A stretch of DNA of 41,032 nt from a virus: positions 1-41,032 of the IMG/VR virus record IMGVR_UViG_3300046534_001481, one strand, 5' to 3'. Made by a program: the position numbers and the translations under genes. This document shows, in pieces, positions 2,594 to 23,108 of the stretch (the first letter of the stretch is position 1; each line of letters starts with the position of its first letter). The notes under the pieces are model-generated. The model saw only the letters and a list, made by a program, of their open reading frames with translations, did no database searches and had not been told where the DNA came from.

Positions 2594-5500
2594 CTATGAC
2601 ATTGCCAGTGCGCGGAATTCTTTAACCTGCGGGACCTTTGCTGAATCGTTACTTAACAATACAAGTTTTACTTGAAAGGCATTGAACTCATCAACAGGAA
2701 TTCCAGCACCTAAATCTGGGAATGTAGAACCTGATCCAGACCCATCAATGAAGTATTCACCTGATTCAAAGTCATATTCAACTTCGGTGAAATTTGCAGC
2801 GTCATCACTTTCAGGTGCAGCAAGAACAGGGAAACCATACACCCATGGTGTATCATCAATGCTTGTGGTATCATCAGTTTCTAATCTGTAATACAATGCA
2901 ACATCAGTTCCAACAGGTCGATTTATAGTCACCCATATTTTAATACTTGATGCAGGGTTTTCTAACAGAACCTTTCGAGTTATGTACTTAGTAAGTGAGG
3001 AATTATCATGAGGGTCAAGATCATCTACAAATCTTGATACCGCATTTGGATCGTCAAAAATTGTATTTGTGTTTGATAAACCAGAACCTTCAAACGTCGG
3101 GTTATTAATTCGATTGCTTATGGCAATCACAGACATTCTTTGAGTGTCAACCACAGGTGATAGGTTAGATATAAGTGAATTCATCGTACCTCTGATATAT
3201 AAATTCTTACCAACACCTACAACTTCATTATCAGCCGATGGTATAACCTGAGATGATCTAAATACGATATCGTTATTTGGTGTAATCGCCGTAAATGCAC
3301 CAGTGGCAACTGGTGACGCAGCCAATGGAGATGTATCAATTGCCCAACTTAAATATGTGCTTGGTACTACAATTGATTTAAGTTGAGTGTGCATTAAATC
3401 GAATTTTCGATTTTCTGTAACTTTCATTATAGAACCACCACTGTAACTCGAGATATCAGCTGCGTCCGTATTCTTCGCAGTTATCTGATAGGAATCCATT
3501 TCAGCGTTTGATATTGTAAATTGTCCTTCAAGATTAGCTTCTGCTATTCCATTTACAAACCCAGCAATGCCTGTCACAGATTCAATAGTTAATTTTGACC
3601 CATCGACCATGCCGTGATTTTTATGGTGAATTCGAACAATTGTACTAAGATCATAAGTTTCAATTGGGTCTTTTCTTAGCAGTTCTTTAGGAACATCTTT
3701 GTTGACCAATATAACGTCTCGTGGTACAGATATATCAAAATCCGCACGATACATAGTGAATTTAAGATCTTTAAATTGATCTGCAGTCCATGTAGAATCG
3801 TTCGCTGATTTGAATAAAACACCTGCAGCAGGTTGTTTAGTAATTCTATGTGTAATAATTGTTATATCTTGTTGACCAAGTTCAGATACCCAGGCTTCAT
3901 ATGATGTATCTTCGGCTTTAAGTACAAAAGCATATTCCACACCTTGCTTAAGAAAAACAGGATCGTCAAATAGGAAAGTAGTTGCAAGACTTGCATCCGC
4001 AGAAGCAACAATAGCAGCATCACCAAAAGGTAATATCTTCTCGGCAATTATTTGTCTGGTTGGATATCCGTTAAGTACTGCACGTATTTGGCACAACACC
4101 GCAGCTTTTGAAGTTGTTGCAATAGTCCTAAAATATGCATCTATTTTAGTTATAAATGCTCCACCTAAATCATTAATTACAAAAGTTTGTGCAAGCGGGT
4201 CATCGCCGCCCTGGCCGCCATTACCAGCACCACTAAATGGTGTTATACTTGCAACAGGTATTGGTGGTACACCAGGTGTCACGACAACATCAATTGATTG
4301 TTGAACAGTTCTTGTTACTAATGCTCTAACCGCACTGGTTTCACTGGTTTCAAATTGAGGAACCTTCGTACTTAATACTGTGCTTTCAGATGTTCTAACT
4401 AAACCTTGCGCAGCATAAGTTGAAGTCGCGGTTGAAGTCGAAAGATTATCGTTATTAGTAGAGTCGTCTGTTAATTTAACGGAACGAGTACCTGTTTTGA
4501 ATTTTAGAAGATTTCCAGATGGCACAATAAAGGAACCATAAAGCTCACCATTTGCGTCGGATATCAGAGCTGTAGTTCCTTGTGGGTGTGAAGTCAACCC
4601 ATTATAAGTTTCATCGGGTGCGTTGGATAATCCCCATGCAACCCAATCTGCTTTATTTTGTAATCTTGCATAACTCGTGATATCAACATCATCAAAGAAC
4701 AAGTACATTAAGGTTTCTGGCTTGACGCGCCCTGCATAAAAGTGTACAGTTCTGCTGCGTATGAATGGAACGAAGTTAATGTCAACAGTTCGTTCACCAA
4801 GATTTTGTTGGACCGTATTGAAATTCAATTCAGTCTGAAGTCCTGTGTTGCTTTGCAAACTAGGAGTTGTTAGTGTGGTAGTAGTATTTGTAGTAGCGAT
4901 AGTACCGGCAACTACATCACCAGTTATAACTCTTTCTGCAACCGAATCATTGACTGTAGCGCCAGTCCACCAAGTAGACCAACCATTCCATTCAGTTCCA
5001 AGAATTCCGGCCTCTTCTGCCATAAATGCAATCGCATCATAGGTGCCAGTGTCGTTGATAACAACATTAGGTCGCGTCTGTACGTCAACCCAATCATCAC
5101 TTTCAGGATTCAATTCAATATTACTTGAATAATCGAAAACAAGGAAAGGCATAAGATTTTCGAATGTAGACGAATAAGGTTGCTTGATCGCAACGACATG
5201 GCCGTCACTATTAGGACCCGCATTAGAAAAAGGTAATGTCACAATACTTCTGTGTTTCAGAGTATCAGTGGTGTAAGTTCCACCCATCTCATCAATTTTC
5301 AAACTCATTGCATCCTGATGAAAGTGAGGGCGCAGAATTCCATTTTTAATATCCATAGATACTGCATAGTCACGATTGGTTACTTCACCAATACCATGCC
5401 CGTTGAAGTTATCAACTACAAAACCATTCTTAAATCGTTCAGCACCAGATGCATCGGTTACATTCGCACCAAGAACACTTTGCTCTAATAAAGATAATGT

Positions 5501-18401: not shown

Positions 18402-18989
18402 ATGGCATCATCAATATTTTCAGATTTACAAGCAGCTGCATTCCGTGGAGGTGTCACGGCACGTACCAGAGAATCAGCAGAGTGGTTCCAGAGCCGTATT
18501 AAGGACATGGGCACAATCAACCGTAACAAGTTGTTAACTGACAGTAGACTGCAAAAGAGACAGCGCTTCGGTGTCGGAAACATGTACATGTACTTCTATA
18601 ACCCTAAGCATCGTAAAACCCTACCTTATTATGATACATTTCCTTTGTCAATCATGGTAGGGCCCGCACCAGACGGCTTCTACGGCATCAACTTGCATTA
18701 TCTCGCTCCACCCTTACGTGCCACATTATTCGATGAGTTATTGTCTATATCCTCAAATAAGCGGTTTGATGAAACGACAAAATTTCGGTTGAATTATGAA
18801 TTGTTATCGGGCGTTCAACGGTTCAAGGCATTTCGGCCCGCGTTTAAACATTATTTAACAAAGCAAGTGCAGAAACCTATAGCACTCGTCGAAGCTTCGG
18901 AATGGGAATTGGCGATCTTTCTTCCAACCGAATCATTCAAGAAGGCATCAAATTCCCGAGTATGGAATGATTCTAAGAAAGCAATATGA
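18402..18989 (+). CDS. Probable DNA end-protector, gp2-like (tentative)
   Basis: 195 residues from ATG 18402 (MASSIFSDLQAAAFRGG). The conserved-looking core is VGNMYMYFYNPKHRKTLPYY, DTFPLSIMVGPAPDGFYGIN and LHYLAPPLRATLFDELL. I recall this pattern from T4-superfamily proteins annotated as gp2 (protects DNA ends in the filled head), but the naming is uncertain. The neighbour gp4 acts in the same head-finishing step, which supports the idea. No ribosome binding site precedes the ATG; a late promoter ends five bases before it. The stop overlaps the homing endonuclease start (ATGA). Confidence 0.6.
   Translation: MASSIFSDLQAAAFRGGVTARTRESAEWFQSRIKDMGTINRNKLLTDSRLQKRQRFGVGNMYMYFYNPKHRKTLPYYDTFPLSIMVGPAPDGFYGINLHYLAPPLRATLFDELLSISSNKRFDETTKFRLNYELLSGVQRFKAFRPAFKHYLTKQVQKPIALVEASEWELAIFLPTESFKKASNSRVWNDSKKAI
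18978..18989 (+). repeat. Left direct repeat bounding the homing endonuclease
   Basis: AAAGCAATATGA here is repeated as AAATCAATATGA at 19493-19504 (11 of 12 identical). Each copy contains the ATGA stop/start overlap. Confidence 0.55.
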
Positions 18990-19504
18990 AACATAATCAT
19001 CACATCATACCAAAACATATGGGAGGCACTGATGAAGCTTCTAATATGGTTTTACTCAATATTGATGAGCATGCCGAAGCTCACAGATTATTATACGAGA
19101 CTCATGGTTTATTAGAAGACAAATTGGCTTGGAAAGGTCTTGCCGGTCTCATGGGTAAAGAAGAAATCATGGCAGCTCTATATAAAGACCCAACCCACCG
19201 AAAGAAAATTTCAGATGCATGTATGGGTCGCGAGCCATGGAACAAAGGAAAAACTGGAGTTCAAGTTGCATGGAATAAAGGTATTGCATGGGATGAGGAA
19301 ACTAAATTAAAAATGAGCGGCCCGCGGCCTGATGTTAAAAACGCGGGTAAATATACACGAAGCGATGAAATAAAGGAAAAGCAATCAAATGCCGCCAAAA
19401 ATGAGACAAAAATATCTTGTACGGAATGTGGAACTATGATTAGACTATGTCATGTTAAAATACATGTTGGTTCTAAGAAATGTAAATTAAGGAAATCAAT
19501 ATGA
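18986..19504 (+). CDS. Free-standing HNH homing endonuclease with NUMOD3 motifs
   Basis: 172 residues. The N-terminus HNHHIIPKHMGGTDEASNMV with downstream EHAEAHRLL is the HNH (beta-beta-alpha metal) nuclease core. Around residue 90 come two NUMOD3-like DNA-binding motifs (EPWNKGKTG, AWNKGIAWDEETKLKMSG). The C-terminus has a possible zinc ribbon (C-x2-C then CHVKIH and KC). It overlaps its upstream and downstream genes by ATGA on both sides, and a near-identical 12-bp repeat marks both edges. It is most likely a mobile intruder between two late genes. Confidence 0.85.
   Translation: MKHNHHIIPKHMGGTDEASNMVLLNIDEHAEAHRLLYETHGLLEDKLAWKGLAGLMGKEEIMAALYKDPTHRKKISDACMGREPWNKGKTGVQVAWNKGIAWDEETKLKMSGPRPDVKNAGKYTRSDEIKEKQSNAAKNETKISCTECGTMIRLCHVKIHVGSKKCKLRKSI
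19493..19504 (+). repeat. Right direct repeat bounding the homing endonuclease
   Basis: AAATCAATATGA, the partner of 18978-18989. If the endonuclease were removed between the repeats, the gp2-like and gp54 genes would again be joined by an ATGA overlap. Confidence 0.55.
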
Positions 19505-20184
19505 GTTTATTGGAAAAGACTACAAAATTTGTTTCGCGTGTTACAGGTCATGGCATCGATGATTTAAAATCAGCAATAAGCCGTAAAGGTGGTGTTGCAA
19601 AGTCGAATTATTTTGCTATCTACATGGAAATGCCGTTGTTAAATTTGAATGCTGGTAGTATTGCAACCAATATATTGGCAGGCAATACATCAATATCTCA
19701 GATTTATAACGATCCCCGAGACGTTACATTCCTATGTGAATCCTGTGCCATACCTGGTCGTGGCCTAGCAACAGCTGAATATGCAAGTGGACGCCACGCA
19801 ATCAAAATGCCATACGGCTTTATCAATGAGGACGTTACATTCTCTTTCATATTGACAGAAGACTATCATATGAAACACTTCTTTGATGAATGGCAGGCCC
19901 GCATCATGACTTTCGATACTAATCGATTGAAGTACCGGAAGAATTTTACCACAGATATTACGATAGTGCAATTAAGTTCTAATGGAACGCCTATATATAC
20001 TGTGAAATTAGAAAATGCATATCCTGTAACTGTAAATTCCATCGAATTGAATACAGGAAATGAGAACACTGTTCAAAAACTAAATGTTGCTATCACATAT
20101 GAAAATTTCAAAGAGAGTAGTTTATCCGATTTAGGTTCGGATATCATCGATGGCATTACATCAAGCGTAACTGATTTATTTTAA
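19501..20184 (+). CDS. gp54: Tail-tube-fold protein, probably the tube initiator gp54
   Basis: 227 residues of the gp19/gp54 tail-tube fold: NYFAIYMEMPLLN, then FLCESCAIPGRGLATAEYAS, KMPYGFINEDVTFSFILTED and HFFDEWQARIMTF, with the final strand VQKLNVAITYENF. An N-terminal helix (~35 residues) precedes the fold, which suits gp54 rather than the plain tube protein gp19. The major tube gene normally sits beside the sheath gene, which is not here, and gp26 and the tape measure follow. gp19 remains possible. Confidence 0.75.
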   Translation: MSLLEKTTKFVSRVTGHGIDDLKSAISRKGGVAKSNYFAIYMEMPLLNLNAGSIATNILAGNTSISQIYNDPRDVTFLCESCAIPGRGLATAEYASGRHAIKMPYGFINEDVTFSFILTEDYHMKHFFDEWQARIMTFDTNRLKYRKNFTTDITIVQLSSNGTPIYTVKLENAYPVTVNSIELNTGNENTVQKLNVAITYENFKESSLSDLGSDIIDGITSSVTDLF

Positions 20185-20208: not shown

Positions 20209-20931
20209 ATGGCTTTACCGATTGTTGAAACACCGAAGTACGAAATGATTATACCTTCAACTGGGAAATCAGTTGAATACCGACCTTATTTGGTCAAAGA
20301 AGAGAAAATATTAGTAATGGCGATGGAATCGAAAGACTCCACAAGCATGATTAGGGCTATACGAGACGTGATTGAATCATGTACTTTCAAGGCAGTTAAT
20401 CCAAATAATCTGACCATGTTTGATCTTGAATTTATATTCCTTAAATTAAGAGCGGTGTCTGTTGGCGCAATGGCCCATATAAAGATTAAATGTGATAACA
20501 AACAGGCCAAGTGTGAAGTGTACCACGAGTTAGAATTGGATTTAGATACTGTTGCGGTTCAGGGTAAAATTGAAAAAGAACATAAAGTTCCGTTGAATGA
20601 GACCATTGGTGTTATTCTAAAGTATCCTACAGTAATGGGCTCTTTAACCACGTCTAAAATGGGTGATGATGAAAACAGTTATAATATGATTCTCGCAACC
20701 ATTATATCTTGCATTGACGTTATCTATGATAACGATAACATGCATTATGCCAAAGATTCAACGAATGCGGAACTGCAAGATTTCGTCGAGTCGTTAAACC
20801 AAGAGCAGTTCAAGAAATTAAATGAATTTTTCAGCGATATGCCACAATTAAAGCATGATATTACTTTTACATGTTTAGGGTGTGGTAAGGAAAATGAGAA
20901 GACTATCAAGGGTTTACAGAGTTTTTTCTGA
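20209..20931 (+). CDS. gp26: Baseplate hub assembly protein gp26 (tail assembly chaperone)
   Basis: 240 residues, near T4 gp26 (208). The N-terminus LPIVETPKYEMIIPSTGKSV EYRPYLVKEEKILVMAMES and the region FDLEFIFLKLRAVSVG are diagnostic of the T4 baseplate gp26 family. Zinc-ribbon-like cysteines occur as CDNKQAKC in the middle and CLGCG near the end. Ribosome binding site GTGAGGA. The last codons are AGT TTT TTC TGA, which form a perfect -1 slippery site, so part of the product is probably extended by 65 residues (next entries). Acts ahead of the tape measure gene, as G/GT proteins do. Confidence 0.87.
   Translation: MALPIVETPKYEMIIPSTGKSVEYRPYLVKEEKILVMAMESKDSTSMIRAIRDVIESCTFKAVNPNNLTMFDLEFIFLKLRAVSVGAMAHIKIKCDNKQAKCEVYHELELDLDTVAVQGKIEKEHKVPLNETIGVILKYPTVMGSLTTSKMGDDENSYNMILATIISCIDVIYDNDNMHYAKDSTNAELQDFVESLNQEQFKKLNEFFSDMPQLKHDITFTCLGCGKENEKTIKGLQSFF
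20922..20928 (+). promoter_or_regulatory. -1 ribosomal frameshift site, T TTT TTC
   Basis: The heptamer is in the correct phase (X XXY YYZ with TTT and TTC as zero-frame codons) and lies directly before the gp26 stop TGA at 20929. Slipping back one base continues into a 65-codon frame ending at 21125. Confidence 0.75.
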
Positions 20932-21125
20932 TAGCCCTTTCTCATGAATCGTTAGTTAATATAATTAAGACTAATTTTGCTTTGATGCAACATCATAGTT
21001 ATAGTTTAACAGAACTAGATCGAATGATGCCATGGGAGAGGGAAGTATACGTTACATTACTTGCCGCTTATATAAAAGAAGAAAACGATAGAATAAAAGC
21101 TGAACAACAAAAGACGGGACGATAA
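20928..21125 (+). CDS. C-terminal extension of gp26 reached by -1 frameshift (gp51 / gpT analogue)
   Basis: 65 codons read after the slip, starting LIALSHESLVNIIKTNFALM and containing SYSLTELDRMMPWEREVYVT LLAAYIKEENDR, the short helical motif of T-type tail assembly chaperone extensions. The frame is open from 20898. Its first initiators are TTG 20982 and ATG 20985, with no ribosome binding site and only after the conserved part has begun. The fusion would be 305 residues. Its TAA overlaps the next ATG (TAATG at 21123-21127). Independent translation from 20985 is the alternative. Confidence 0.75.
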   Translation: MIALSHESLVNIIKTNFALMQHHSYSLTELDRMMPWEREVYVTLLAAYIKEENDRIKAEQQKTGR

Positions 21126-21410: not shown

Positions 21411-23108
21411 ATGGCAACCGCAACACTAACAGATATCGTTGAACGAATGAGAGCCGAAGGGTCATTGACTCGTAATAGTGGCACGAATTCCATCAAGTCG
21501 ATGAAGTCATCTATTCAAGATATCAGCAATACTCTGATCAACGGGCCGACCGCGTCATCAAGTGCCATCGAGTCATATATCGATTTTATGCAGAATGGTG
21601 CTATAGCGGAGGTTGAACGATCAAGGGAATTGTTGCTTGAAAATGAGGCGCTGCGTGAGCAAATAGAAGAAAACACCGACCGTATTGTCAAGTCTCTTGA
21701 TGGCATAGAATTTGATAAAGGATTCGATTTTGGTGGATTCGCACTTAATCTTATCGCGGCAATAATGCAACTATCAGGAGCGATCATTGGTGGTTTGTTT
21801 GTCGGAGCATTGCTTGGTGCATGGAAAGAAGCGAAGGTATGGGGTAGGGTTATCAAATTCATGACCACAGGTATTATGAATGCATTGCGATTGGAAGGTG
21901 TGGGTGCCTCAATTGCGCTTCAATTCACAAAAATTGCAACGAGATTGAAAGATGCACGAATTGCAATAGGTCTCGCGTTTGACGCATTCAAAGGTAATAC
22001 ATTCCTTACAAAATTAATAGAACCCATTGCCAAATATTTCGACGAGTTTTTTAAATCACTGCGTGCTTCATTTAATGTAGTCAAAGCTATGTTTACAGGA
22101 CTCGGTACTGGTGGCATTTTCAAACCAATAGCTGAGGCATTCAAATCGTTGAAAACATTTGGTAGCTCTATCGGTGGATTCTTTAAAGGGTTAGGCGAAG
22201 CGGCCAAGGTTCTTGGCGGATTCTTTCAGAAGTTATTCGTTCCACTAAGAGCAGTTATGGTTTTATACGAAACTTATGTTGGTATAATGGATGGTTTTGC
22301 AGCAGAAGGTCTTCTTGGTGGTATTAAAGGAGCATTGAAGGGTTTCTTCAAGGGAATGGTAGGCGACATTCTAAACTTAATTAAAGATGCGGTGTCGTGG
22401 GTCGCGGAGCAATTAGGATTTGATAAGTTTGCCTCGTTGCTTGATGGGTTTGATTTCAATGTACTGATGGGTGATATCATCAATGGGTTGTTTAAATTCG
22501 TGGGTGGTGCAATCGATGGTATCTCTACTTTCTTTGAGAATATGAGTATCTCTGAATCACTCTCGGGTGCGAGGGATAGTTTTGGTAGTCTCGTAACTAA
22601 AATTGTCGACTCGGTGTTTAAGTTCTTTAGCAGTGCTGTCGATGGTTTAGTTGCGTTATTCACTGGAGAAATGAGTATAGGTGCTGCGTTAGGTAACGTA
22701 GGTAATGCTATACAAGGGTTTTACAAGAAAATCTTACAAATGATTCTACCAACACCAGATTCAAATGCGAAGTGGTTTGATATAGGTAATTTACTATCTA
22801 AAGCTATTCCAGATGAAGTGTATGCATTTGCAGGATTGAATCCTGAAACAGGTGCGCTTATTCCTGATGATGTTGATTCACTTGTACCAAATATGGGAAC
22901 ATCAAAGATCAATGCTGAAAGTATGGTAGCGAATGAATCTGCCAGCATCAATAGAAATGGAGGTGCACCCGTAGTAATCGTTGGTGGTGGAACGACCGAT
23001 AATAGTGTGATCACTAATAATGTTGACAGTCGTAGTACTCAAGTCAATGTTACAGGTGCTAACAATAAAATGGGCCTTAACAAACAAGGCCCTGGACAAT
23101 TCAACTAG
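21411..23108 (+). CDS. gp29: Tail tape measure protein, gp29-like
   Basis: 565 residues from ATG 21411, preceded by AGGAAATA (T4 gp29 is 590). Helical N-terminus with a coiled coil (LLLENEALREQIEENTDRIV, residues ~75-100). Hydrophobic Gly/Ala-rich membrane-like segments follow (LIAAIMQLSGAIIGGLFVGA). Many amphipathic F/G/A/K repeats such as FKGLGEAAKVLGGFF come next. The flexible C-terminus has PVVIVGGGTTDNSVITNN. Position after the chaperone pair is the normal place for a tape measure. The last eight bases overlap the convergent endolysin gene. Confidence 0.82.
   Translation: MATATLTDIVERMRAEGSLTRNSGTNSIKSMKSSIQDISNTLINGPTASSSAIESYIDFMQNGAIAEVERSRELLLENEALREQIEENTDRIVKSLDGIEFDKGFDFGGFALNLIAAIMQLSGAIIGGLFVGALLGAWKEAKVWGRVIKFMTTGIMNALRLEGVGASIALQFTKIATRLKDARIAIGLAFDAFKGNTFLTKLIEPIAKYFDEFFKSLRASFNVVKAMFTGLGTGGIFKPIAEAFKSLKTFGSSIGGFFKGLGEAAKVLGGFFQKLFVPLRAVMVLYETYVGIMDGFAAEGLLGGIKGALKGFFKGMVGDILNLIKDAVSWVAEQLGFDKFASLLDGFDFNVLMGDIINGLFKFVGGAIDGISTFFENMSISESLSGARDSFGSLVTKIVDSVFKFFSSAVDGLVALFTGEMSIGAALGNVGNAIQGFYKKILQMILPTPDSNAKWFDIGNLLSKAIPDEVYAFAGLNPETGALIPDDVDSLVPNMGTSKINAESMVANESASINRNGGAPVVIVGGGTTDNSVITNNVDSRSTQVNVTGANNKMGLNKQGPGQFN

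Follow-up and report, generated by a model that had tools for sequence, protein, structure and literature searches.

In phage lambda, the short open reading frame (ORF) G carries a -1 slip site near its 3' end, with the slippery sequence G GGA AAG, and the T ORF, which has no start of its own, follows it between the tail tube and tape measure genes, in the gene order V-G-T-H. Conserved tail frameshifts, that of phage P2 E/E' among them, were reportedly described by Xu, Hendrix, and Duda in 2004. The mechanism by which the short and long lambda chaperones (gpG and gpGT) act is summarized in PMC5009743 (2016), in which the G-T frameshift is described as widely conserved and T4 is named as the exception. 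In a review of T4 (PMC3004832), gp26 and gp51 are given only as hub assembly chaperones. Our literature search on gp26/gp51 frameshifting returned no T4-like case; the relevant work, published in 2022 by Vladimirov, Gautam, and Davidson (Virology 566:9-15), came to light through papers that cite it. As cited in PMC12846349 (2025), that work reports poly-T slippery sequences in T4-like TAC-N genes, and as cited in PMC10885494 (2024), it reports that other T4-like phages carry a short gene and a fused long gene.

Here, we describe a tail assembly chaperone (TAC) locus in an uncultivated virus, IMG/VR record IMGVR_UViG_3300046534_001481, positions 1 to 41,032; this whole stretch of 41,032 nucleotides is referred to below as the window. 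Because the two citing papers refer to TAC genes of this sort in T4-like phages, the locus is, as far as those citations describe the published cases, a new instance of a kind already published in outline and is not novel in kind. The original prediction, made from the window sequence, carried the remark that no documented case for a T4-type gp26/gp51 pair was known to its author; this remark needs amending. The locus resembles the TAC-N/TAC-NC genes cited from that work in the gene involved and in the poly-T type of frameshift; it differs in coming from a new uncultivated phage, and a Shine-Dalgarno (SD)-like element and a test of selection are given here.

RESULTS

The gp26 locus has the gene order of a lambda-type tail chaperone. 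In profile searches, gp26 of the window matches PF12322 (E value of 2e-56) and phrog_150, "baseplate hub" (E value of 4e-59). It is followed by an ORF in the -1 frame, by one small ORF, and by the tape measure gene (Table 1), and it thus lies between a tail tube family gene (phrog_45) upstream and a tape measure gene (phrog_305) downstream, which is the position of the frameshifting TAC genes. The order matches that of lambda, with the tail-tube-family gene placed as V is to G, and the analogy with lambda G/GT that had been proposed for this locus fits on this point. The window differs from lambda in its slippery sequence, T TTT TTC in place of G GGA AAG, and in that it belongs to a contractile-tail myovirus, and detectable sequence homology to lambda is not expected. 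P2 E/E' is similar in its logic and genome position and differs in protein family. The window tape measure protein matches the protein in the same position in phage Melnitz (E value of 3e-11). From the sequence, we consider it very likely that the window comes from an uncultivated T4-superfamily myovirus and that this locus is its TAC gene. An AlphaFold2 model of gp26 has a mean pLDDT of 91.9. A Foldseek search of this model against the PDB gave no significant match; the top probability among the hits listed (0.63) belongs to the HK97 tail assembly chaperone 2OB9, but with an E value of 0.9 over 53 columns.

Two neighboring features were also observed. The small ORF that precedes the tape measure gene has an ATG that overlaps the T-domain stop (TAATG), an N-terminal D-x-DGDG-x-I-D calcium-loop-like motif (a weak Dockerin_1 match), and hydrophobic segments, and the ORF in the same position in Melnitz has a similar DTNGDGK motif. 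An HNH homing endonuclease gene (phrog_655, NUMOD3) is present at positions 18986 to 19504, between the DNA end protector and tail-tube-family genes.

Table 1. Features of the gp26 locus, with window coordinates
Feature	Coordinates	Strand	Evidence
Tail-tube-family protein, T4 gp54/gp19 type; upstream neighbor	19501..20184	+	phrog_45 (E 4e-30), PF06841 (E 5e-10)
gp26/TAC-N, lambda gpG-like short tail assembly chaperone, 240 aa, ending ...SFF-TGA	20209..20931	+	PF12322, phrog_150
Predicted frameshift fusion TAC-NC (gp26-T), 240 + 65 = 305 aa	20209..21125	+	Heptamer, conserved -1 frame, T4 gp51 (see text)
SD-like stimulator AAGGGT	20908..20913	+	Anti-SD energy peak in 91 loci
-1 slippery heptamer T TTT TTC, in phase with gp26 (T6, 20922-20927; C, 20928)	20922..20928	+	Sequence; 126/126 heptamer-type relatives
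0-frame stop TGA, directly 3' of the heptamer	20929..20931	+	Sequence; in relatives 0, 1, 8, or 9 codons beyond the heptamer
TAC-C/T domain, -1 frame, 65 codons + TAA (21123-21125)	20928..21125	+	phrog_634 (E 1e-25); tblastn; dN/dS
Small predicted membrane ORF, 94 aa	21125..21409	+	ORF list; phrog_27150 (E 2e-10), unknown function
Tape measure protein, 565 aa, presumed chaperone client	21411..23108	+	phrog_305, tail length tape measure (E 2e-7)

A slippery heptamer abuts the gp26 stop and is conserved. The 3' end of gp26 reads AGT TTT TTC TGA, in which the heptamer follows the X XXY YYZ pattern. Relatives of gp26 were gathered from viral contigs by means of motifs within gp26, and not by means of the heptamer, and named phages were added. 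T TTT TTN is in phase in all 126 distinct relatives of the heptamer type, a set that comprises every locus whose gp26 3' end could be read except those of the Ackermannviridae, Vibrio phages K469/K368, and the T4-type phages. The last base of the heptamer is C in 76 of these loci, T in 45, G in 3, and A in 2. The lineages represented are the Kyanoviridae together with marine UViGs, Schizotequatrovirus, Aeromonas phages, the Pootjesviridae, and one Variovorax phage. Throughout the 126 loci, the heptamer stays on an SFF, DFF, or NFF motif while the gp26 stop shifts between 0 and 9 codons further on. The alignment of related loci that had been proposed as a check on the prediction thus found the heptamer and the downstream frame conserved in every heptamer-type lineage, and no heptamer-bearing locus without a conserved -1 ORF was found among the relatives collected.

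The -1 extension is under selection ahead of any start codon. After a slip at the heptamer, the next codon in the -1 frame is CTG. The -1 ORF contains LTELDRMMPWEREVYVTLL and matches phrog_634, "baseplate hub assembly catalyst" (gp51), as well as, with less significance, the C-terminal end of phrog_150; a tblastn search with the T domain gave matches in 573 phage records. The earliest possible -1-frame starts in the window are TTG at 20982 and ATG at 20985, neither of which has a good Shine-Dalgarno sequence. The original prediction of an in-phase heptamer abutting the gp26 stop, of a -1 frame open for 65 codons to 21125 with this motif, and of the lack of any start with a ribosome site is borne out by these observations, with the correction that the coding extension begins at 20928 and not at 20898. 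In the relatives, the -1 peptide has conserved residues near its beginning (L3 in 77 of 89 rows, H5 in 75, L8 in 82, N15 in 83, and F16 in 87), and the usual first ATG in this frame is codon 18 or 19 (61 of 91 loci). For codons 1 to 17, which lie upstream of that ATG, the -1 frame has a dN/dS of 0.083 and the two alternative frames have values of 1.66 and 2.36; for the 57 of 91 loci that have no ATG, GTG, or TTG among the first 18 codons, dN/dS there is 0.082; these values come from pooled pairs, which are not independent, at a pS of 0.66. A start inside the -1 ORF cannot account for this conservation; slippage at the heptamer does. A conserved -1 coding extension without a start of its own, which is a mark of the frameshifting TAC genes, is therefore present at this locus. 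From the heptamer, the conserved -1 frame, and the in-frame fusion of both domains in T4 gp51 (see below), we infer the fusion TAC-NC.

Other routes to the T domain. In the database annotation of many relatives, the C-terminal ~44 to 48 codons of this ORF are given as a gene of their own, which implies that a short gp51 of about 46 to 47 amino acids, started in the window at the internal TTG or ATG, carries the T domain as a protein of its own. Met or Leu is indeed common at that position, which is also where the usual first ATG falls. However, a later start leaves unexplained the strong purifying selection on the -1 frame of the ~18 codons upstream, the internal starts have no good Shine-Dalgarno sequence, and in T4-type phages, the T domain is made only as a fusion. 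We therefore reject an independent T start as the main route, because selection is found upstream of that start, and consider a separate gp51 very unlikely. The Kyanoviridae entries named gp51 or baseplate hub assembly catalyst (loci L005, L006, L007, and L018) use an internal ATG start and omit ~18 conserved codons; these entries are probably misannotated fragments. The earlier statement that ordinary gene calling misses this ORF holds for the first ~18 codons and for the fusion but not for the C-terminal part, which has been annotated in many relatives.

Reinitiation or translational coupling at the gp26 stop, in place of slippage, would likewise yield the -1 frame, and PVA23, Rhizobium AF3, Dickeya Ds23CZ, and Vibrio K469/K368 have a TAATG or TGATG overlap that would suit it. 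In contrast, the window reads TGATAG and has no start codon near the stop, and several of the lineages that bear an overlap retain T TTT TTC or T TTT TTG. Furthermore, where the gp26 stop is 8 to 9 codons on, the conserved -1 peptide starts upstream of it, at the heptamer. Coupling is, by this evidence, extremely improbable as the source of the T domain.

Homopolymers are prone to error, but the possibility that a mistake in sequencing or assembly of the T homopolymer split one continuous ORF is rejected as negligible, because independent genomes, from isolates and metagenomes alike, show the identical arrangement at 126 distinct loci, always with a 0-frame stop 0 to 9 codons later. Chance as the origin of the -1 ORF, with the heptamer no more than a side effect of a conserved Phe-Phe motif, has next to no probability: the Phe pair is indeed kept in gp26, that of T4 included (LKEFFELL), but the T4-type gp26 homologues, which have no further need of the shift, carry FF or FV without a heptamer (TTC TTT or TTT GTT), and wherever a -1 T domain follows, neither the T ahead of the pair nor the TTT codon varies. 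In a set of 91 of the 126 loci, the codon before the Phe pair is any of six different codons, all of which end in T (log10 P of about -21), and the first Phe of the pair is always TTT, compared with 26% TTC among the other Phe codons of the gene (log10 P of about -12); both values treat as independent loci that are not.

An SD-like sequence lies upstream of the heptamer. In 91 of 91 loci, an invariant Gly codon places GG at positions -11 and -10 from the heptamer. Across these loci, the energy of pairing with the 16S tail stays close to 0 for most of the 90 nt before the heptamer and reaches a peak of about -6 kcal/mol for octamers that end 7 nt upstream of the heptamer. This pairing is stronger than in synonymous shuffles (-6.09 versus -4.94, with a standard deviation of the mean of 0.11). 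The element resembles the upstream Shine-Dalgarno sequence of Escherichia coli dnaX. A downstream stem-loop was considered as a stimulator and set aside: RNA structure there is unremarkable in the window (z of -0.81), and across the relatives it is only mildly stable on average (mean z of -1.46 versus about -0.4 in control stretches).

Some lineages lack the T6 heptamer. The Ackermannviridae (Kuttervirus, Taipeivirus, Miltonvirus, and Limestonevirus) have no T TTT TTN and instead have (A/G)TT TTC near the gp26 stop, with G as the preceding base in most and A in some. The site is followed by a conserved -1-frame FHLIFEIDLLSYF... peptide that matches phrog_9633, and phrog_634 with E values down to 8e-8; in most genera, this peptide starts ahead of any possible start codon. 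The slip site of T7 gene 10 is G GTT TTC, and the Ackermannviridae site, which it resembles, is possibly a slip site of the same type. This T-like peptide near the gp26 stop is mostly unannotated (loci L014, L099, L100, L101, and L105 to L125).

Vibrio phages K469/K368 and Dickeya phages of the genus Limestonevirus have a TAATG overlap without an X XXY YYZ heptamer. In the Vibrio phages, the T-like ORF starts at this overlap (L012, position 3723; L102, position 2723), which is possibly a coupled-start variant; no relatives were found when viral contigs were scanned with the Vibrio K469/K368 alignment. Relatives with a separate start for the second ORF and no slippery site had been named beforehand as the finding that would count against frameshifting; such an arrangement is found in part, in these two outlying groups. 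These lineages, like the fused gp51 of the T4 type, look like derived alternatives that do not undercut the frameshift of the window.

T4 gp26 and gp51 correspond to the short and long forms. In T4, genes 26 and 51 (positions 2803 to 4229 of the T4 locus) are on opposite strands, and therefore no frameshift can join them. PF12322 matches both T4 gp26 (E value of 9e-64) and residues 1 to 201 of T4 gp51 (E value of 4e-52), and the C terminus of gp51 matches phrog_634 (E value of 1e-23). The T-domain HMM that we built matches residues 201 to 247 of T4 gp51 (i-E value of 1e-6) and also the gp51 proteins of Klebsiella phage GF (8e-10) and Stupor (9e-4). PF12322 is found twice each in T4, Stupor, and KpnM_GF and once each in 12 other records tested. 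These matches indicate that T4 gp26 and gp51 are paralogues, in which gp26 is the short form and gp51 is the long form, with the short-form and T domains fused in frame. The T4-type pair is most simply explained by a gene duplication and an in-frame fusion that would have replaced the frameshift. Compared with the window, T4 thus has a gp26 homologous to the short form and a gp51 composed, like the predicted fusion, of a short-form domain and a T domain, and it differs in having two separate genes, on opposite strands, without a frameshift. Since T4 gp51 is a fused long form, it supports the view that the T domain functions as part of a fusion.

DISCUSSION

The heptamer, the conserved -1 coding sequence without a start codon, the gene order, and the homology to T4 gp26 and gp51 are direct observations. 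With a high degree of confidence, although on sequence evidence, we propose that the gp26 locus makes a short and a long form of the tail chaperone by -1 slippage; we infer the occurrence of the shift, its rate, and the mechanism of the chaperones. The majority of ribosomes would terminate at the TGA and release gp26/TAC-N of 240 amino acids. A minority would pause, under the influence of the upstream SD-like sequence and the adjacent stop, and would slip one base back with both Phe-tRNAs on T TTT TTC, after which they would read 65 more codons in the -1 frame to give TAC-NC of 305 amino acids. By analogy with lambda gpG/gpGT, many copies of TAC-N and a few of TAC-NC would together coat the tape measure protein, tail tube subunits would be recruited by the T domain, and both forms would depart before the tail is completed.

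We lean slightly toward a broader, joint reading, in which all T4-superfamily lineages without the duplication, Ackermannviridae included, make TAC-NC by -1 slippage. Under this reading, the Ackermannviridae would have swapped T TTT TTN for G RTT TTC, followed by a -1 T domain (phrog_9633), the SD-like stimulator would tune the heptamer sites of the other lineages, and T4 genes 26 and 51 would be a duplicated, slip-free end state.

The main idea is already in print, and the value of the present analysis lies in confirmation, in breadth, and in a cleaner mechanism. If the T domain is made as we propose, the short T4-type "gp51" of cyanophages and of many marine phages is not a 45-residue protein in its own right but the C-terminal portion of a frameshift fusion, and the gene calls at this position are therefore probably incorrect in hundreds of phage annotations. 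It would also explain the essential T4 chaperones gp26 and gp51, which have long been puzzling, as two forms of one lambda-type tail chaperone that has been split into two genes.
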